Shown in pieces: positions 12,823-30,738 of a stretch of DNA of 64,000 bases. Origin of the DNA: Lysobacterales bacterium PRO7 (GTDB taxonomy: Bacteria; Pseudomonadota; Gammaproteobacteria; Xanthomonadales; Rhodanobacteraceae); the NCBI GenBank assembly GCA_021404785.1, contig QWHH01000012.1, positions 23,838 to 87,837 of the forward strand. The letters are read 5' to 3'. Under the pieces are notes generated by a model. It worked only from the letters and a program-made list of their open reading frames with translations. It ran no database searches and was not told the origin of the DNA. Every line of letters starts with the position of its first letter. Position 1 is the stretch's first letter. The position numbers were made by a program, and so were the translations under genes.

Positions 12823-15225
12823 TCAATTGCGATGATCCTTGTTGTCGTCGTTCTTCTTGTGTTCCTGCGCATTGCCGCGCTGCACCGGTTCCGCCACGCG
12901 TGCGTTTGGCTGGGCGTTGCCCTGCGGCGCGCGGTACTCCTGCACGTTGCGTTGCGGTGCGCGATATTCCTGCTGCGGTTGCTGGACCGGAGCACGGTAT
13001 TCCTGCACGTTGCGCTGCGGTGCGCGATATTCCTGCTGCGGTTGCTGGACCGGAGCATGGTATTCCTGCACGTTGCGCTGCGGTGTGCGGTATTCCTGCT
13101 GCGGTTGCTGGGCCGGAGCATGGTACTCCTGCACGTTGCGCTGCGGTGCGCGGTATTCCTGTTGTGGAGCGCGGTTCTCCTGCACGTTGCGCTGCGGGGC
13201 CCGGTATTCAGGCTGCGCTTGCGCCGGCGCCACCGTGCGGTTGCCGAAATTGGTGGTCGCGCGTCCGTTGTCGCTGGCATTGCCGCGATCCTCGTTGGAC
13301 GTTGGCTTGGTTGCCGGCACGGTGCGCTGGATTTCACGGTTCGGCACGGCACGCGCCGGTTGTGCGTCGCGCACGCCGGTTTCTTGCGGGTGGGCAAATC
13401 GCGACGAGTCCAGGTGCCGCGGTGCTTCGTTCACCGTCTGCGGTCGCACCGAACCGTCGCCCAGGCGCTGTGTACCTGGCGCAACGGGACGTACCGATCC
13501 GTCTCCCGCGCGCTGCAATACCTCACGCGTCGGATTCGGACGCACCGAACCATCTGCAGCACGCTGTGCGGCGGGCTGGTCAGGTGCTACCGACGCGCGC
13601 GCCGGCAAGGCCTTGGCGGGCGTGAAGGTCGGCGCGCCATGCTCAGTGACCACGCGCACATTCGGACGCGCGCCGATGGCGTGCGCCTCCGCGGCACCAC
13701 CGGCGACGGCTCCCGCGGCAACCGCCGCGGTGCGCAGCTGGTGTTCGCTCAACGGCCGGCCCGGATTCTTGTCCAGCACGGCCTGGCGTTGCGCGAACGA
13801 GGCCACTCGCGGCGGCGGCTGGGTTGCCGCGACGATCGGACGATTGACCACGGTCGCCGCCGGTACTGCGCGTGCCGCGACGGCTGGCGCAAGGCTGGCG
13901 CGGGTCGGGGCGATCGCGGCGAAACCGGAGACGCGCGCGTTGGCGAAGGTTTCGCGATTGACGGCGATGGCCGCGCCGGCAACCGGACGCGAAGCGACGA
14001 ACGCCGCCGCCGGCACCGCGGTCACCGCGCCGGCGATGTTGCGGTTGGCGTAGTTGATGCGCGTGTAATCGACGTTGCCGCGTGAATAGTTGCCGTAATA
14101 GTTGTTGATCACGGTATTGTTGATCACCGTGTTGGTCACGTTTACTCGCGTGAAATAATTGCGGCTGACGCGATACGGCGGGATGTAGACGTCGCGATAG
14201 CCAAGCGGGAACCAGCCGATCGGTCCGCCCACCGAGATGTTGACGCCGAATCCGCCGCGACCGCCGATGAAGGCGACCAGCGCAGGCGCATAGACCGGGC
14301 GCACCGCGACCGGACCCGGGCACCAGCCCCAGCGGTTGCCGATGTAGGCCCAGCGACCATAGTGGAACGGCGCAAAGCCCCACGGCGAATCATCGATCCA
14401 GGTCCAGCCGTAGGCGCCGACCCAGGCCCAGTGGCCGGAGTGGTACGGAGACCAGCCCACGGCGACCGACGTCGGATACCAGACGTTGCCGTACTCGGGC
14501 ACGTCGTTCCACGAGCCGTAGTTGTCCAGGTCCTGGTAGCCGATCACGTCCTCGGACACATAGCGGCGCGAGGATGAATTGTCCCAGCGCGTGTCGCGTT
14601 CATGGCAGAAATCGTCGAACGCGTCGGTCCGCGGCAAGCCGTTGACCTGATAATCGCGCAATTGCGCGTCATGGAACGTCACCGACTGGCCTTCGTCGAC
14701 GGCAAAGCGCGCGCCGCCTTCGCCATAAACATCGCCGCCGCCGCTGAGCACGGTGACGACGGTCGAACGGCCGTCGGGTTCCACATCGATGCGGAACACG
14801 CCGACGCGATTGACCACGAACGCAAGCGTGGGTGTGTCGATCTCGTAGCTCTGGCCGTCATACAGGCGGCGCACGCGCAGGTTAAGCGTGCCTTGGGTCA
14901 ATTCCATCTGCGCGACGTTGTCGGTGAGATTGAGGAAGTCGAAACTCGTGCTCTGGTCCATGCGCACGGCGGCGGCGCCGATTTCCAGCGACGCGCGCGA
15001 GCTGCGGTCGGTCCACAGCTTGTCGCCGGTGATCAGCGGACGATTCAATTGCGCCTGCACCCAGTCGTTTTCGCCGGCCGGTACGAAGCTGACATCGCCC
15101 TGCATGTAGGAAAGCCGGGCCACGCGGCCGGGCGGGTCGACCGGCGTGCCGTTGTCTTGCGCCAACACGGCGAAGGCAAGGCCGAGGCCGGCCAGTAGGA
15201 CAGCGATTCGAGAGAGTCGGAACAT
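12823..15225 (-). CDS. Large secreted FecR/DUF6600 protein with C-terminal tandem repeats
   Basis: An 800-residue exported protein. A signal peptide (MFRLSRIAVLLAGLGLAFAVLA) precedes a FecR-like beta domain (about 30-170; SYMQGDVSFVPAGENDW, GTLNLRVRRLYDGQSYEIDTP). An aromatic DUF6600 region follows (about 220-330), with repeated Trp/Tyr/Gly phrases such as VGWSPYHSGHWAWVG and FAPFHYGRWAYIGNRWGW. The middle is Ala/Val-rich and contains three copies of a GDGSVRP-like motif. The last 110 residues are 21-residue repeats (QEYRAPQRNVQEY type). The start at 15225 has AAGGAG upstream. Function is unknown; the aromatic region and charged, Gln-rich tail suggest an envelope or surface-binding role. Confidence 0.85.
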   Translation of the reverse strand: MFRLSRIAVLLAGLGLAFAVLAQDNGTPVDPPGRVARLSYMQGDVSFVPAGENDWVQAQLNRPLITGDKLWTDRSSRASLEIGAAAVRMDQSTSFDFLNLTDNVAQMELTQGTLNLRVRRLYDGQSYEIDTPTLAFVVNRVGVFRIDVEPDGRSTVVTVLSGGGDVYGEGGARFAVDEGQSVTFHDAQLRDYQVNGLPRTDAFDDFCHERDTRWDNSSSRRYVSEDVIGYQDLDNYGSWNDVPEYGNVWYPTSVAVGWSPYHSGHWAWVGAYGWTWIDDSPWGFAPFHYGRWAYIGNRWGWCPGPVAVRPVYAPALVAFIGGRGGFGVNISVGGPIGWFPLGYRDVYIPPYRVSRNYFTRVNVTNTVINNTVINNYYGNYSRGNVDYTRINYANRNIAGAVTAVPAAAFVASRPVAGAAIAVNRETFANARVSGFAAIAPTRASLAPAVAARAVPAATVVNRPIVAATQPPPRVASFAQRQAVLDKNPGRPLSEHQLRTAAVAAGAVAGGAAEAHAIGARPNVRVVTEHGAPTFTPAKALPARASVAPDQPAAQRAADGSVRPNPTREVLQRAGDGSVRPVAPGTQRLGDGSVRPQTVNEAPRHLDSSRFAHPQETGVRDAQPARAVPNREIQRTVPATKPTSNEDRGNASDNGRATTNFGNRTVAPAQAQPEYRAPQRNVQENRAPQQEYRAPQRNVQEYHAPAQQPQQEYRTPQRNVQEYHAPVQQPQQEYRAPQRNVQEYRAPVQQPQQEYRAPQRNVQEYRAPQGNAQPNARVAEPVQRGNAQEHKKNDDNKDHRN
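12931..13210. repeat. 63-bp tandem repeat array inside the FecR/DUF6600 gene
   Basis: Between three and four imperfect copies of a 63-bp unit, recognisable by CCTGCACGTTGCG and GATATTCCTGCTGCGG recurring at 63-base intervals (for example 12961 and 13024). The unit is a multiple of three, so copy-number change would lengthen or shorten the protein in 21-residue steps without frameshift. Adjacent copies differ at only a few bases, which suggests recent expansion. Confidence 0.85.
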
Positions 15226-23641: not shown

Positions 23642-24463
23642 TCAAAGCCGCTCGCAGACCGCCAGCGTCGCTTTCGCACGGTTCAATGTGTAGAAGTGGA
23701 TTCCTGGCGCTCCGCCGGCGATGAGCTTGCGGCACAGGTCGGCGACCACGTCGGCGCCGAATTCGCGGATCGCTTCGACGTCGTCGCGATACGCTTCCAG
23801 GCGCTTGGCGATCCAGCGCGGGATTTCCGCGCCGCACAGGTCGGAGAACCGGCGCAGCTGCGCGTACTGTGAAATCGGCATGATGCCCGGAACGATGGGA
23901 ATATCGATGCTGTGCTTGCGCGCCTCGTCCACGAAGCGGAAGTAGGCATCCGCATTGTAGAAATATTGTGTGATCGCGCCGTTCGCGCCGGCCTTCACCT
24001 TGGCCGCGAAATTTTTCAGATCCGCGTGCGCATCGCCGGCCTGCGGGTGCATTTCCGGATAGCAGGCCACCTCGATGTGGAAGAAACCGTCGCATTCGCG
24101 GCGGATGAATTCCACTAATTCGCTGGCATAACGGAAGTCGCCATAGCTGGCCATGCCCGAAGGCAGGTCGCCGCGCAGCGCGACGATGCGCTTGCAGCCC
24201 ATCGCCTTGTAGTCGTCGAGCAAGGCGCGGATTTCCGCGCGCGTGCCGCCCATGCACGAGACATGCGGCGCGGCGTCGAGGCCGTGCGCGTCGCGCAGAT
24301 GGCGCACGATCTGCGGCGTATAGGCGAGCGTAGATCCGCCCGCGCCGAACGTGACGCTGACGTAATCCGGATTCAGCGCCTTCAGTTTCGGCAGCGCCGC
24401 TTCGAGCGTGGCCTTCTGCTCATCGGTTTTCGGCGGAAAGAATTCGAGGCTGATCAGTGGCAT
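23642..24463 (-). CDS. metF: 5,10-methylenetetrahydrofolate reductase MetF
   Basis: A 273-residue flavoenzyme that makes 5-methyltetrahydrofolate for methionine synthesis. The catalytic glutamate lies in SLEFFPPKT near the N-terminus. FGAGGSTL, HVSCMGG, ALRGDLPSG and ITQYFYNAD are the folate/FAD-binding segments. The C-terminus HFYTLNRAKATLAV is typical. It lies on the same strand as ahcY, 4.7 kb downstream, and is probably now expressed from its own promoter (-10 TATACT at 24498-24493) with a leader of about 23 bases. Confidence 0.96.
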   Translation of the reverse strand: MPLISLEFFPPKTDEQKATLEAALPKLKALNPDYVSVTFGAGGSTLAYTPQIVRHLRDAHGLDAAPHVSCMGGTRAEIRALLDDYKAMGCKRIVALRGDLPSGMASYGDFRYASELVEFIRRECDGFFHIEVACYPEMHPQAGDAHADLKNFAAKVKAGANGAITQYFYNADAYFRFVDEARKHSIDIPIVPGIMPISQYAQLRRFSDLCGAEIPRWIAKRLEAYRDDVEAIREFGADVVADLCRKLIAGGAPGIHFYTLNRAKATLAVCERL

Positions 24464-25436: not shown

Positions 25437-25581
25437 GTCGGATTCCTCGTGGAGTTTGCGTGGCGGACGATATGGGTCCGCGAGGCGGCTTTTCCAGTGG
25501 ATGGCATGAAGCCTTCTTGAAAGGTTGCGCCCGAAACCGGCGAAGTTTAGACTTCGTATAAACGTATCGAAGGAGCGTGTC

Positions 25582-25836
25582 ATGGCAATGGTCGAACTGG
25601 ACATCAAGCAGTGGGGCAACAATCTCGGCGTGCGCTTGCCGGTGGCGATCGCGCGCGCGGCGCATCTGCGCGCGGATCAGCGCGTGAGCATCGCCGTCGA
25701 GGATGGCCGCGTCGTCGTCACGCCGATGGACGACGCGCCCCTCACGCTTGAACAACGCCTTGCGCGGTTCGATCCGCAAAGCCACGGCGGCGAAGCCATG
25801 GCCGCCGATGAGCGCATCGGGGCCGAGCGCTGGTGA
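25582..25836 (+). CDS. mazE: MazE-type (AbrB-fold) antitoxin
   Basis: An 84-residue antitoxin: MAMVELDIKQWGNNLGVRLPVAIARA is the swapped-hairpin AbrB DNA-binding fold, and the acidic C-terminal tail (DDAPLTLEQRLARFDPQ) would wrap the toxin. AAGGAG six bases upstream supports the ATG at 25582. Its stop overlaps the GTG start of the toxin by 4 bases. The pair usually represses its own promoter. Confidence 0.93.
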   Translation: MAMVELDIKQWGNNLGVRLPVAIARAAHLRADQRVSIAVEDGRVVVTPMDDAPLTLEQRLARFDPQSHGGEAMAADERIGAERW

Positions 25837-26234
25837 ACAAGCGCGTTGGAAAACGCATCATCAATCCGGCGCGTGCATGGGTGCCGGATCGGCAGGACGT
25901 GATCTGGATCGACTGCAACCCGCAAGCCGGGCGGGAAATGCGCGACGTGCATCCGTTCCTCGTGCTGTCGCCCAAGGCATTCAACCAGCGCACTTCGCTT
26001 GTCGTCGGGCTACCCATGACGACTGCCGAGTACAACGCGAGCAATCCGTTCGCCGTTGCCGCTGGTGTTGCGAGTGGGCGCAAGTCGGGCGCGACGAGTT
26101 ACGTGCTGTGCCATCAGCCCAAATCGTTCGATTGGCGATTGCGCGGCGGCAAGCCGCATCCCATGCGCAGGCTGGATGACAAACCGTTCGCCGAGGTGCT
26201 GCTGGTGTTGAACCAGATTGTGCAGTTGGCGTAG
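25833..26234 (+). CDS. mazF: MazF-family endoribonuclease toxin
   Basis: A 133-residue MazF/PemK toxin starting at GTG. The family hallmarks are VIWIDCNPQAGREMRDVHPFLVLSP (with the RP/H pair at the RNA-binding edge), the conserved TTS-like LVVGLPMTT and VLCHQPKSFDW. It would cleave mRNA at short specific sequences. About 20 N-terminal residues precede the usual MazF start, so a downstream start is possible, but the 4-base overlap favours 25833. Confidence 0.92.
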   Translation: MNKRVGKRIINPARAWVPDRQDVIWIDCNPQAGREMRDVHPFLVLSPKAFNQRTSLVVGLPMTTAEYNASNPFAVAAGVASGRKSGATSYVLCHQPKSFDWRLRGGKPHPMRRLDDKPFAEVLLVLNQIVQLA

Positions 26235-26404: not shown

Positions 26405-27286
26405 TTGAAAACTATCGCAACGATCAACTTCAAGGGCGGCGTTGGGAAAACCACAGCCACTTGGGCTCTGGGGAACGTCGCGGCTCGCGACACTGGAATC
26501 CGATCGCTGATCTTCGATCTGGATGCCCAGATGTCGCTCACGCAAGCGATTGCGCTCAACGAGGACGGCAATCCGTTCAAGGACTTTACCAATTGGTATG
26601 AGCGATCAATCAGCAAGAAAAAGACAATATTTGATGCGCTTGATGAGTTCACGAAGCCAACGACGTTCAATTTCGGCATTAATCATGATTTCATCTACAA
26701 AATCTCGGAGCGCTATCACTTTATTCCATCGGTCGAAGATCTCTATTGGACCGAACTTGAGCTATTTGATCGAGAGAAGGTTAAGTTCTTCATTCAACGC
26801 TTACTGGAGAAGGTTCAGAATTCATCGAATGTCCCCAAATACGACTACGCGCTATTCGATTGCCCGCCTTCTTTTAGCCTTTTGAGCTATTCGGTCTTGT
26901 CTACCTGTGACCTTGTGCTTATCCCCATCAATCCTGATTTCTTCGCTGCTAAGGGCCTATCGCTGCTGTTGAACAGTCTTCGCATGCGCATAGAACCATT
27001 CCCTGTTCCGAAGATCGGTGTCTTCATGAATCGTGCGAAGAAGCCAGGTGGGAGTTCCGTCAAACGATACAGCAATGAGACACAGCGCTATCTCGATGAT
27101 GCCGCGGACGTGCTAAAACACGTCGCTGCCGACCGCGGCCTGAATGTCCGGCTTTTTGATCAGGCCATCTTTGAGAAGGTCGGCATGAAGCGAGCGATTC
27201 AAGAGGGATTGCCCACTGACTTTGCGGCACAATACGCAGCTCTTTGGAAACAGGTTCAAGGCTTCTTAAATGAGAAGACCAAATGA
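26405..27286 (+). CDS. ParA-family ATPase (orphan, accessory)
   Basis: A 293-residue ParA/Soj-type ATPase starting at TTG with a strong AGGGGAG site just upstream. The deviant Walker A is NFKGGVGKTT (residues about 8-17), Walker B is YDYALFDCPPSFS and switch I is LIFDLDAQMSLT. It lacks an N-terminal DNA-binding domain, so it resembles small type Ib ParA proteins. No ParB is adjacent; instead a small coiled-coil protein overlaps by 4 bases. Codon use is clearly more AT-rich than in the neighbours, a sign of transfer. The role is unknown: segregation, positioning or defence are all possible. Confidence 0.88.
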   Translation: MKTIATINFKGGVGKTTATWALGNVAARDTGIRSLIFDLDAQMSLTQAIALNEDGNPFKDFTNWYERSISKKKTIFDALDEFTKPTTFNFGINHDFIYKISERYHFIPSVEDLYWTELELFDREKVKFFIQRLLEKVQNSSNVPKYDYALFDCPPSFSLLSYSVLSTCDLVLIPINPDFFAAKGLSLLLNSLRMRIEPFPVPKIGVFMNRAKKPGGSSVKRYSNETQRYLDDAADVLKHVAADRGLNVRLFDQAIFEKVGMKRAIQEGLPTDFAAQYAALWKQVQGFLNEKTK

Positions 27287-27684
27287 CTAACGACAACCTC
27301 CGACTGGAAATTTCGAAGCTTCATGAAAAGCTGGATCGCATACTTGTTTTGCTCGATGCAAGAACTGCATCTGCGCAGAAGAAAGCAGCTGATCGCAAGG
27401 CAAAGCAACAAAAACCTAAACCTTTGACTGAGGCTGAGATTAGGTTACAACAGGAGCATTTCCAGGAACTTTTCTCTCGCTGGATGAATGGCTCCGAGGT
27501 CGAGGTTCAGAATGAACTTGAGCGGGAAGATGCAGATGCGCTCAGACGGTTTGCCGATGCGAACAACTTGAACATCACTACTAAGACACCCAAGACCAAG
27601 GCTCTACAACTGATCGCAGCGAGATTCCGAGAAAAACGGCAACTCATGCAGGGGCTCCCGTCGCGACGAGACGTTGACCTTTAG
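27283..27684 (+). CDS. Small coiled-coil protein partnered with ParA
   Basis: A 133-residue hydrophilic protein. Residues 5-40 look like a heptad coiled coil (LRLEISKLHEKLDRILVLLD), followed by a Lys-rich linker and a helical C-terminal domain (LTEAEIRLQQEHFQELF...FREKRQLM). The ATG overlaps the ParA stop (ATGA), so the two are coupled. Its size and position suggest a ParA cofactor in place of ParB, but no DNA-binding motif is clear. Composition is AT-rich like ParA. Confidence 0.8.
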   Translation: MTNDNLRLEISKLHEKLDRILVLLDARTASAQKKAADRKAKQQKPKPLTEAEIRLQQEHFQELFSRWMNGSEVEVQNELEREDADALRRFADANNLNITTKTPKTKALQLIAARFREKRQLMQGLPSRRDVDL

Positions 27685-27780
27685 TGCGGGAACAAAGTGA
27701 ATGTCGCGTGGCGCCAGTCTTGTTTTCAGCAATGAACAGTTCGAAGGTCAGTAGCGATAACGTCTCCTTATGTATGGCTC
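27685..27780. repeat. Decayed copy C of the ahcY 3' end and downstream region
   Basis: On the minus strand it reads through a TAT-CGC-TAC-TGA end that matches the last codons of ahcY, followed by sequence like the ahcY downstream region up to GGCGCC. By hand alignment 44 of 67 positions from 27715 match the native copy from 29163. It separates the ParA pair from the Zn-ribbon gene. Confidence 0.65.
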
Positions 27781-27804
27781 TTTCAGCACGTTACCCCACG
27801 AGAC

Positions 27805-28347
27805 TCAGTCCCAGCATCCCGCGCTTTTAAAATGCAGGGTTCTCTGTTCGCATTTCGGGCATGGATAGGCACAGTCATAGAGGGTGTAATACTCGCCCGC
27901 TCGAACTTTCTCCCATGTGGCTTCATAGTTGGCAACAAGCTCAGCCCGTAGCCCGTTCAGATCAAGTTCAAGATCGGACAAGATCGCTTCGAATTGAGCG
28001 CGACTGTCGTCAGTATCGCCCCTCTCCATCTGGATGATGTCATCAGCAAAGGCTTCAGCTGACGGCGCACGCAGGATGCTTGAGTTGGGGTGCTCGTGCC
28101 ACTCATATACCGTATGGTGCAACGGTTGGCCCAAAAACATCGACGGGTCGCTGTAAGGTGTCACTGCGGCCCCCTGGCATTGATTGCAACGAGGTTCCGG
28201 ATCCATGGCGTTCAACACCACGAGTTCGGAGCATGCCTCGCACAAGTAAGGGAAGGCATTGCGCTCTGTGAAATCATCGAAGCCACCGCCAAGAGCCATA
28301 CTGGTCTTGTAGCCACATTTGCACGATGCACTGACCATGGTACCCAC
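27805..28347 (-). CDS. Zn-ribbon protein of unknown function
   Basis: A 180-residue soluble protein with several paired cysteines: CKCG (about 9-12), CEAC (about 36-39), CNQC (about 55-58) and CPKC near the C-terminus, consistent with two zinc ribbons. The middle is acidic and helical (DDIIQMERGDTDDSRAQFEAIL). I do not recognise the family. ATG at 28347 or 28338 may be used. It lies between two decayed ahcY-end copies, so it appears to be independent cargo of the accessory block. Confidence 0.72.
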   Translation of the reverse strand: MGTMVSASCKCGYKTSMALGGGFDDFTERNAFPYLCEACSELVVLNAMDPEPRCNQCQGAAVTPYSDPSMFLGQPLHHTVYEWHEHPNSSILRAPSAEAFADDIIQMERGDTDDSRAQFEAILSDLELDLNGLRAELVANYEATWEKVRAGEYYTLYDCAYPCPKCEQRTLHFKSAGCWD

Positions 28348-28453
28348 ACCACACCCCCGATTGCCTGGAGTTTGAAATTCCGCAGTTTCTCATCAACCGT
28401 GATCTCACCGAGGGCAGTATCTTCCGGAGTCTGTGTCAGAGTCCACTATCGAC

Positions 28454-28520
28454 CGAGTCGAAATAAAAACGAGCGCCCTTTTCGTTTCCAGCGATGACCA
28501 GCCCGACGATCAGTCGCGAA
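28454..28520. repeat. Copy B of the ahcY 3' end and terminator
   Basis: Identical to the native copy over TTCGTTTCCAGCGATGACCA (28481-28500 against 29167-29186); 15 of the next 21 bases also match. The terminator stem is reduced to AAACGA/TCGTTT with a T-rich tail on the minus strand and may still end brnTA transcription, since it follows the brnA stop directly. Confidence 0.8.
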
Positions 28521-28521
28521 C

Positions 28522-28827
28522 TTATTGCTTCACCGAAGCCGACAACCGCGCGACCATGCGCGTTTGCCAGCCGGGGCCGGTAGCTTTCCAGCGTTCGATA
28601 ACCGACACCGGGACACGCAGGGAGATGGCGGTTTTCGCTTCGCCGACGACAGGGCGGCCGCGCTTGCGCGCGATCAGCTCGCCGATCTTGCGGTCCCATT
28701 TGACGGCGCGCGGGTCTTTGCGCGCTTCACGGCGCACGCGTTCCCAATCGGTGCGATCTTCGCCGCGCGCGCGGGCGGCGCGCATCTGTTCACTGGTCAT
28801 CACGGTAATCTTTTTCGAGCCACGCAT
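28522..28827 (-). CDS. brnA: BrnA-family antitoxin
   Basis: A 101-residue antitoxin. The N-terminal half is charged (TSEQMRAARARGEDRTDWERVR) and the C-terminal half is a ribbon-helix-helix-type DNA-binding segment (KTAISLRVPVSVIERWKATGPGWQTRM). It neutralises BrnT and represses the operon. GGGAG upstream supports the ATG at 28827, which gives a 38-base overlap with brnT; ATG 28800 is the alternative. The gene ends against copy B of the ahcY repeat. Confidence 0.92.
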   Translation of the reverse strand: MRGSKKITVMTSEQMRAARARGEDRTDWERVRREARKDPRAVKWDRKIGELIARKRGRPVVGEAKTAISLRVPVSVIERWKATGPGWQTRMVARLSASVKQ

Positions 28828-29089
28828 AGTAGTTCTCCCGTTCTTTCCGCTTCGCTTGGCGGAAACTCACGATGCGGCAGCGTTCTTCTCCGGAAACAAA
28901 CGCAACCGTCAGCACTGTCAACACATCGAACACATAGGCGAATGCTTGCTTCCGGGCTTCGCCTTTGCGTTCGCTGTCCACGATCAGGACGTAATCGCTT
29001 TCGAGCACCAGGTCGGCGTCGGCGAAATCCAGCCCGTGCTTGTGCAGGTTCGCGGCACGCTTGGCTTCGTCCCATTCGTAGATCATCAT
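28790..29089 (-). CDS. brnT: BrnT-family ribonuclease toxin
   Basis: A 99-residue RelE-fold toxin. The family opening is IYEWDEAKRAANLHKHGLDF, followed by acidic ADADLVLESD and the C-terminal RIVSFRQAKRKERENYY. It cleaves RNA and is inhibited by BrnA. ATG codons at 29089 and 29086 are equivalent; a longer frame to 29122 would run through the operator palindrome and is rejected. Together with brnA it forms a complete type II toxin-antitoxin unit. Confidence 0.93.
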   Translation of the reverse strand: MMIYEWDEAKRAANLHKHGLDFADADLVLESDYVLIVDSERKGEARKQAFAYVFDVLTVLTVAFVSGEERCRIVSFRQAKRKERENYYAWLEKDYRDDQ

Positions 29090-29096
29090 GAATAAT

Positions 29097-29112
29097 GTAT
29101 ATACGTATATAC
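29097..29112. promoter_or_regulatory. brnTA operator palindrome
   Basis: GTATATACGTATATAC is a perfect 16-bp palindrome ending 7 bases before the brnT start at 29089. BrnA-type antitoxins autoregulate by binding such palindromes, and the TATA content suggests it also contains the -10 region. Confidence 0.65.
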
Positions 29113-29125
29113 GAAATGTCAAGTT

Positions 29126-29195
29126 CTGCGGGACTCAAAGCAAAACGGGCGCCTCTCGGCGCCCGTTTCGTTTCCAGCGATGACCAATCCGCCGA

Positions 29196-29223
<28 letters not shown>
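29126..29223. repeat. Native ahcY 3' end and terminator (copy A of the repeat)
   Basis: This stretch covers the last codons of ahcY (ending Tyr-Arg-Tyr-stop), its terminator and the bases beyond. Copies B (28454) and C (27685) lie further downstream on the same strand, each separated from the next by a cargo gene or gene pair. Confidence 0.75.
29141..29168 (-). terminator. Intrinsic terminator of ahcY
   Basis: AAACGGGCGCC (29143-29153) and its exact complement (29158-29168) around TCTC form an 11-bp stem, followed on the minus strand by TTTTG. It lies about 30 bases past the ahcY stop codon. Confidence 0.85.
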
Positions 29224-30620
<1,397 letters not shown>

Positions 30621-30674
30621 TGGCGTAGCTCCGTTGCGTTGGAGGGCGCGGTTTCGGTTGATGGAACCCGAAAA

Positions 30675-30738
30675 CCCGCCGAGCCTGATTTCGCGTCCGT
30701 ATCGATCACGGCGGGAAAATGCAGCGCCCCTCGGCGGG
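30675..30738 (-). promoter_or_regulatory. SAH riboswitch upstream of ahcY
   Basis: Reading the minus strand, CCCGCCGAG (30738-30730) is followed by GGGCGCTGC, then by CAGGCTCGG. The two ends CCCGCCGAG and CTCGGCGGG (30683-30675) pair perfectly over 9 bp to form P1. These blocks match the conserved core of the SAH riboswitch, which turns on ahcY expression when S-adenosylhomocysteine accumulates. A small hairpin around GGGTT-CCATC-AACC follows and may be the expression platform before the CGGAG ribosome site. Confidence 0.92.

Follow-up and report, generated by a model that had tools for sequence, protein, structure and literature searches.

Accessory genes often occupy hotspots without an identifiable integrase, and how they enter such sites is an open question. 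The question is raised by a stretch of 64,000 nucleotides from the 2.8-Mb genome of Lysobacterales bacterium PRO7 (Rhodanobacteraceae; contig QWHH01000012.1, positions 23,838 to 87,837; hereafter the window), in which small gene cassettes lie behind ahcY, the gene for S-adenosylhomocysteine hydrolase, and are separated by copies of the ahcY 3' end (hereafter tails). The three tails of the window are real. As to their origin we lean, with limited confidence, towards an accretion hotspot that works without an integrase in the interval between ahcY and metF, fed by homologous exchange and by homology-facilitated illegitimate recombination, with the tails as scars.

Three copies of the ahcY 3' end in the window

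An initial annotation, made from the letters alone, had described two echoes of the ahcY 3' end downstream of the gene. A repeat search recovered them as one family of three 47-nt copies, A (29159-29205), B (28473-28519) and C (27711-27757). In ungapped comparison with the native 47-mer A, B matches at 42 of 47 positions and C at 36, and no further place in the window exceeds 26 matches on that strand or 27 on the opposite one. When the 5-kb downstream region was resampled 2000 times with a first-order Markov model, the best score was 31 of 47, and 100 control 47-mers from the ahcY body score at most 30 in the same region. Comparison of copy C with resampled sequence had been set beforehand as a check, and its score exceeds all 2000 resamples. 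Searched against the whole genome with a 135-nt query, B has an E-value of 2.9e-11 and C of 9.2e-5, C reaching only E 0.016 with an 80-nt query from which the hairpin is left out. The three copies are thus confirmed, B and C both lying clearly above chance.

The copies could in principle be no more than similar rho-independent terminators that arose by chance or convergence. The hairpin part alone does match other places in genomes at weak E-values, and the copies of one relative (G008) are of the terminator kind apart from 15-20 bases of the untranslated region (UTR). However, B and C match A upstream of the hairpin, in the UTR and the last codons, far above resampled sequence, and copies in relatives contain up to 534 nt of ahcY coding sequence. 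This explanation, which we consider very nearly excluded, is already refuted for B and for most relatives; for C the answer lies in its 36 of 47 matches.

Read in the orientation of ahcY, the array consists of ahcY, tail A with an intact terminator, brnT-brnA, tail B, a cysteine-rich gene and tail C, as follows.

29196..30620, minus strand: ahcY (S-adenosylhomocysteine hydrolase), the anchor gene (Pfam AdoHcyase, E 3.5e-151)
29159..29205, minus strand: copy A, the native ahcY 3' end with last codons, UTR and start of the terminator (repeat search)
29138..29173, minus strand: intact terminator-like hairpin of ahcY (inverted repeat and sequence reading)
28790..29089, minus strand: brnT toxin gene, ATG start picked by eye (Pfam BrnT_toxin, E 2.9e-19 on 28790-29122)
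28522..28827, minus strand: brnA antitoxin gene (Pfam BrnA_antitoxin, E 5.6e-11)
28473..28519, minus strand: copy B, apparently a displaced ahcY 3' end, terminator partly decayed (42/47 to A; left boundary -10)
28435..28447, minus strand: flank behind copy B, common to the native ahcY terminator flank of genome G002 (13-mer and alignment)
27805..28347, minus strand: cysteine-rich (CxxC) gene of 180 aa, the second cassette (no Pfam, NCBIfam or PADLOC match)
27711..27757, minus strand: copy C, the most decayed ahcY 3' end, hairpin gone by eye (36/47 to A)

Beyond tail C, on the opposite strand, lie a gene for a ParA-type ATPase with a 133-aa partner and the mazEF genes, followed by a putatively pirin-like gene and by metF. 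Pfam matches above the cut-off place BrnTA and MazEF among the type II toxin-antitoxin systems. BrnT, BrnA and ParA had been named correctly in the initial annotation according to Pfam; its Zn-ribbon label for the second cassette goes back to CxxC pairs only, with no family match. The cysteine-rich protein has a single weak relative (G094, E 2.7e-6) among 234 genomes of the family, and comparison with solved structures gave no significant match. PADLOC matched ParA weakly, assigned a gene of genome G012 to AbiZ, and returned nothing else. The ParA gene and its partner do differ in base composition, with 49% guanine plus cytosine (GC) as against 63% in the window; the cysteine-rich gene has 54% and brnTA 59%.

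Extra tails and inserts in related genomes

The regions downstream of ahcY were read in 54 genomes, the window's own included, with one genome per species; they were partly picked for several matches, so that the counts should not be read as frequencies. In seven of them, from three genera, one or more additional ahcY 3' ends were found behind ahcY. Those in G000, G008, G015, G093 and G152 were detected by blastn with each genome's own tail (E 6e-6 or better); to these come G012, in which a 150-bp insertion interrupts the native tail, and G097, which has the complete gene first and an ahcY fragment 1.7 kb downstream. Of ten extra copies with the sequence at hand, eight retain the hairpin as judged by eye. 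Weak matches near E 1e-3 in G089, G237, G104 and G255 were left uncounted, and the G089 row is uninformative because its tail query was misplaced (the supposed stop codon is GGC). A control query from the inner part of ahcY gave two matches in the 54 genomes, at E 1.3e-4 and 5e-3. At the protein level, two AhcY C-terminal matches occur in only four of 399 genomes of the order (G093, G097, G152 and G301).

The ahcY-metF interval was measured with 62 genomes. metF lies behind ahcY on the same strand in 46, between 65 bp and 25 kb away, and on the other strand in two; in 14 it was not found within the available stretch. Relatives in which metF follows closely, with intervals of 65, 199, 203 and 214 bp, show no extra copy. 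Comparison of the downstream regions across relatives supports repeated, additive insertion at the ahcY 3' end, and in this the initial annotation was largely right.

The content of the inserts varies. At the place equivalent to that of the window, G012 carries a relative of brnTA (88% DNA identity), and behind B an AbiZ-like/DUF6161 gene and mazEF remnants; no C was found in this genome, where another gene occupies its place. The insert of G097 consists of a nucleotidyltransferase remnant and mazEF, and that of G152 of an Rhs-type fragment (a YD-shell match at E 0.007, weak and below the cut-off), a small open reading frame (ORF) and a DUF4265 gene. G093 has two inserts between its tails. In G015, one insert measures 0.7 kb and the other 12 kb, the latter encoding a sigma factor, a TonB receptor and a peptidase; the two inserts of G008, about 6 and 5 kb long, include an S41 peptidase and a fucosidase. 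As estimated from tail positions, seven of the ten inserts measure about 0.7-2.1 kb. The commonest families in the relatives' intervals are cytochrome oxidase and related ones (25 commonest of 60 families, from 127 of 135 chosen ORFs). That the cargo is mostly toxin-antitoxin pairs was not borne out: they are only a part of it.

Some other sequences were noticed next to the ahcY stop codon. The 150-bp insertion of G012 lies right behind it (locus L034, about 14637-14769) and gives the impression of a dispersed intergenic repeat. Loci L045 and L046 (G017 and G003) have a similar short sequence directly 3' of the stop codon, the usual terminator not being seen there by eye. In G301, an f8 genome, the second AhcY C-terminal match could be a paralogue or a further scar.

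Left boundaries, a readable junction and a displaced end

The left edges of the copies were located by change-point estimates and counted from the ahcY stop codon. They lie at -10 for B in both the window and G012 (probably the same insertion), at -12 for C (interval -11 to -49), at -37 for the middle copy of G015, at about -51 for the middle copy of G093 (-37 to -57), at -182 for its distal copy, at -184 for G152 and at -534 for G097. Such a spread makes a single fixed attachment (att) core unlikely, and no constant crossover core was found, though -182 and -184 nearly coincide. A core near -38 suggested by eye was dropped after the change-point estimates. Site-specific integration at the ahcY stop codon, as proposed in the initial annotation, is therefore not supported by the left ends, nor by the one junction that could be read, where a microhomology was found.

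This junction is in G097, which has the complete ahcY, its terminator, mazEF and an ahcY 3' fragment (534 nt of coding sequence plus UTR, 551 of 594 positions identical); the two tails have a common UTR (56/60). The junction CTTCGGCGGTTTCGAGATCAACACC, the sequence upstream of the window's mazE, CTTCGCCGGTTTCGGGCGCAAC, and ahcY, GGAAGGTTTCGAGGTCAACACC, all share GGTTTCG. If the cassette flank is taken from the window, this is a 7-bp microhomology between mazEF and the displaced ahcY. In simulated random joins of the mazE upstream sequence and ahcY, at least 7 bp were shared with a frequency of 0.0013.

The flank of copy B allows a view on the order of events. The 13-mer behind B, AGTGGACTCTGAC (28435-28447), was seen at just one other place among 159 loci, several of which overlap the two places concerned, namely directly after the native terminator of ahcY in G002. 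Being confined to two places, it was rejected as the end of a dispersed repeat. The alignment score between the flank behind B and the G002 flank was reached by none of 300 shuffles, compared with 13 to 246 of 300 for the eight other flanks compared, among them the flank behind B in G012 with 64 of 300. Since B shares its flank with a native terminator, it looks like an older ahcY end, pushed off when brnTA entered, in agreement with the displacement proposed from the window alone. Copy C is likely older than B, judging from its decay. The proposal that the oldest insertion lies furthest away is, in its strict form, unproven: brnTA and B recur in G012, where no C was found and another gene takes its place. 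Restored and displaced gene ends are present as direct repeats, as expected for a genomic island at a gene 3' end.

Tail relatedness bears on whether the copies were made in place, by unequal crossing-over or replication slippage, with the cargo arriving independently. Several similarities would fit such a tandem duplication: B and C of the window score best against the window's own native tail, the proximal and distal coding tails of G152 agree at 180 of 184 positions, against at most 170 of 184 in 12 other genomes compared, and the G097 tails share their UTR. However, the middle copy of G015 and both copies of G093 score best against the native tail of the window and not against their own; a lineage-specific character of the tails is thus not borne out, and import fits them better than duplication in place. 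Cargo lies exactly between the copies in the window, G012, G015, G093, G097 and G152, duplication alone would not account for cassette flank sequence where ahcY is broken, and mazEF, apparently spread horizontally, is found at the locus in three genera. We consider duplication in place improbable.

A mazEF module behind ahcY

Between tail C and the far border of the hotspot the window has the following genes.

27283..27684, plus strand: 133-aa partner gene of ParA (no match in family searches)
26405..27286, plus strand: ParA-type ATPase gene, 49% GC (Pfam AAA_31, E 1.2e-32)
25833..26234, plus strand: mazF toxin gene, ahcY-linked in three genera (Pfam PemK_toxin, E 3.1e-20)
25582..25836, plus strand: mazE antitoxin gene, ATG start picked by eye, ORF opening at 25525 (Pfam MazE_antitoxin, E 1.3e-9)
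23642..24463, minus strand: presumably metF, which bounds the hotspot on its far side (a conserved neighbour in relatives according to tblastn)

MazF of the window type (E at most 1e-20) was found in four of the 234 family genomes, always behind ahcY, at +60 (G241), +103 (G237), +482 (G097) and about +3000 (window), and in all four oriented opposite to ahcY. At another place, the window's genome encodes a second, weaker MazF match, a paralogue (G000:C12, E 3.7e-16). Remnants of mazEF lie at the matching place in G012 and G002, and the ahcY-linked module spans three genera. In G237 and G241 it is present without a clear duplicated tail. A fifth ahcY-linked case is the short contig L160, titled Bacteroidetes, which is probably a misbinned gammaproteobacterial contig; its ahcY 3' end has 88% DNA identity to that of the window and its mazEF 84%. 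Ahead of mazEF, it carries what we take, from the translation, to be an XRE/ImmA-type and PIN-like pair. The mazEF genes of the window and G097, from different genera, are 86.9% identical, whereas those of G237 and G241, from one genus, are 78.2% identical, which points to horizontal spread of the module into the same spot.

Outside the family, 399 genomes drawn from the whole order yielded seven further ones with MazF; none has ahcY in the roughly 1.5 kb or less available on either side, and in G372 a distance of 219 kb separates the two genes. Of the best 80 MazF loci in the GTDB collection, 53 of which span at least 12 kb, seven have ahcY: L160-L163, which are of the present type, and three loci from two Zhongshania genomes. 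The other 73, L164 among them, lack it, so the mazEF module appears mobile in general, and its tie to ahcY is, as far as seen, a feature of this family. In the Zhongshania loci (L176, L182 and L200) a distance of about 3 kb separates the related MazF from ahcY-metF, and it is on the opposite side of ahcY; this proximity is due to chance or to an older link.

Searches for a recombinase or a carrier

The initial annotation had noted that no recombinase is present, and no tyrosine recombinase was found at the locus. Among 12 genomes searched for PF00589, ten have no match on the ahcY contig, and the matches nearest to ahcY in the other two are 148 kb (G008) and 196 kb (G028) away. Home-made hidden Markov models (HMMs) detected no tyrosine recombinase in the 54 ahcY loci; they recovered five of six known recombinase loci, four of the five being also training data, and missed L100. 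Serine recombinases and transposases, which were not searched by name, are not among the 25 commonest of the 60 Pfam families of the 127 interval ORFs scanned. No attC-like site was noticed by eye, no search for one having been made.

The initial annotation had suggested looking for mobile elements with the ahcY tail at their end. The phage collection gave only two weak ahcY-tail matches, to the hairpin part, and no plasmid or viral carrier was established. Matching records in the plasmid collection number 44, and 17 of the 20 listed are annotated ahcY genes of other bacteria; six viral contigs encode a distant AhcY relative, at 48-70% identity.

These results have to be set against an origin of the array from decayed or satellite integrative elements, whose integrase, of the tyrosine or serine type, would use a site in the ahcY 3' end and would since have been lost or be supplied in trans, each element bringing a replacement 3' end and leaving the displaced one as the distal repeat. 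The anatomy of restored gene and displaced end is what such elements would leave, the left boundaries at -182 and -184 coincide in two genera and that at -37 (G015) is near the middle one of G093, and the inserts of 5-12 kb in G008 and G015 are of fitting size. Against it stand the negative search for tyrosine recombinases in the 54 loci (one of six controls being missed), PF00589 matches that are off the ahcY contig or at least 148 kb away, boundaries that range from -10 to -534, seven of ten inserts of only 0.7-2.1 kb, the mere two weak, hairpin-only matches in the phage collection, the distant AhcY relatives of the six viral contigs, and the microhomology in G097. We regard integrative elements as an unlikely source, if a less unlikely one than duplication in place.

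A model for cassette capture

The product expected of homology-facilitated illegitimate recombination corresponds to what is seen, namely inserts mostly of 0.7-2.1 kb, varied boundaries and a microhomology at one junction. Donor DNA carrying ahcY and a downstream cassette would enter the cell and be anchored by homologous recombination, presumably dependent on RecA, in the conserved ahcY. Its other end would be joined illegitimately at a short microhomology, sometimes within the recipient's own ahcY. What results would be an intact ahcY whose 3' end and terminator come from the donor, followed by the incoming cassette and by the former tail of the recipient as a scar, and repeated rounds would yield the succession tail, cassette, tail, cassette, tail. 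In the manner of minimal mobile elements, ordinary recombination in the genes on either side could then pass existing cassettes from species to species, and toxin-antitoxin cassettes may be retained because their loss is costly, if they act by addiction. We infer that the window's own B and C arose by homology-facilitated illegitimate recombination.

A broader possibility, which we hold only tentatively and rather doubt, is that the ahcY 3' end is a general capture site in Rhodanobacteraceae, where cassettes without a recombinase, some of them toxin-antitoxin pairs, carry or gain the host tail and terminator. Homologous recombination alone would then suffice for arrays to lengthen, shorten and pass from genus to genus, as in an integron with RecA in place of an integrase.

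A number of observations weigh against capture without an integrase. No scar is present in 47 of the 54 genomes, many of which have intervals of 2-12 kb. Three of the ten inserts are large, one of 12 kb (G015) and two of about 6 and 5 kb (G008); in G008, moreover, the copies consist of the UTR end and hairpin only, without any coding part of ahcY. Random joining need not give copies that start at -182 and -184 in different genera, as those of G093 and G152 do. The microhomology concerns one junction only, with a donor flank modelled on the window's mazE, and the sequence upstream of mazE differs elsewhere, partly in G237 (CGGTTTCAAG) and again in L160. In G152 the coding tails are nearly identical (180 of 184), yet behind the stop codon 5, 3 and 6 of 12 bases match in three bins, a combination that no simple version of the model explains. 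L164, from a metagenome-assembled genome of Lysobacterales, has a MazF 85% identical to that of the window, and about 6 kb around it are free of ahcY. Some of the contigs that carry ahcY are short, and for these the absence of a recombinase is weak evidence; the missed HMM control and the scope of the search for serine recombinases and transposases, described above, also count here. Finally, the ComEC family protein encoded in the window's genome is poor evidence for competence, as the same search was positive in 10 of 14 control genomes, E. coli included.

Comparison with known systems

The minimal mobile elements of Neisseria are variable cassettes between conserved genes that are exchanged by transformation. 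The ahcY locus may be comparable: differing cassettes lie between two conserved genes across species, no tyrosine recombinase was found there, and exchange via flanking homology fits the distribution of mazEF. In contrast, the ahcY cassettes are added serially and leave copies of the 3' end of the upstream gene, whereas classic minimal mobile elements swap one cassette for another without scars. Integron arrays have a similar order of repeat, cassette and repeat, with new cassettes apparently entering at a fixed end, but at the ahcY locus no tyrosine recombinase was found and a housekeeping gene supplies the repeat with its tail. With integrative islands in gene 3' ends the locus shares the restored end, the displaced end as a direct repeat and tandem insertion; it differs in that no integrase was found, a common core boundary is lacking and the inserts are mostly of cassette size.

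Homology-facilitated illegitimate recombination, as described in PMC3240628, involves mostly 3-10 bp of microhomology and inserts of about 1 kb. One homologous anchor, one illegitimate junction at a microhomology and inserts of about this size are likenesses to the process proposed here; unlike that process, which we deduce from natural genomes, it is known from laboratory transformation and conjugation (PMC3240628). The ahcY locus further differs in the repetition of events at one place and in some larger inserts.

According to PMC4239095, Xanthomonadales are the one exception among seven lineages surveyed, the others all having metF in the ahcY operon; this remark fits the ahcY-metF interval, which may be where the operon was pried open. 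Among the literature matches listed, judged by titles and the beginnings of abstracts, there is no account of insertion behind ahcY. With insertion scars in a flanking gene, a toxin-antitoxin module shared by three genera and a junction readable to the base, the locus makes capture without an integrase testable by comparative genomics.

Other features of the window

Two further features were recorded. An S-adenosylhomocysteine (SAH) riboswitch lies directly upstream of ahcY, and far from the array, at 12862-13222, the window has a tandem repeat with a period of about 63 bp, comprising five copies of a 60-nt unit.

30637..30738, minus strand: SAH riboswitch (Rfam RF01057, 44.5 bits, E 6.6e-6)

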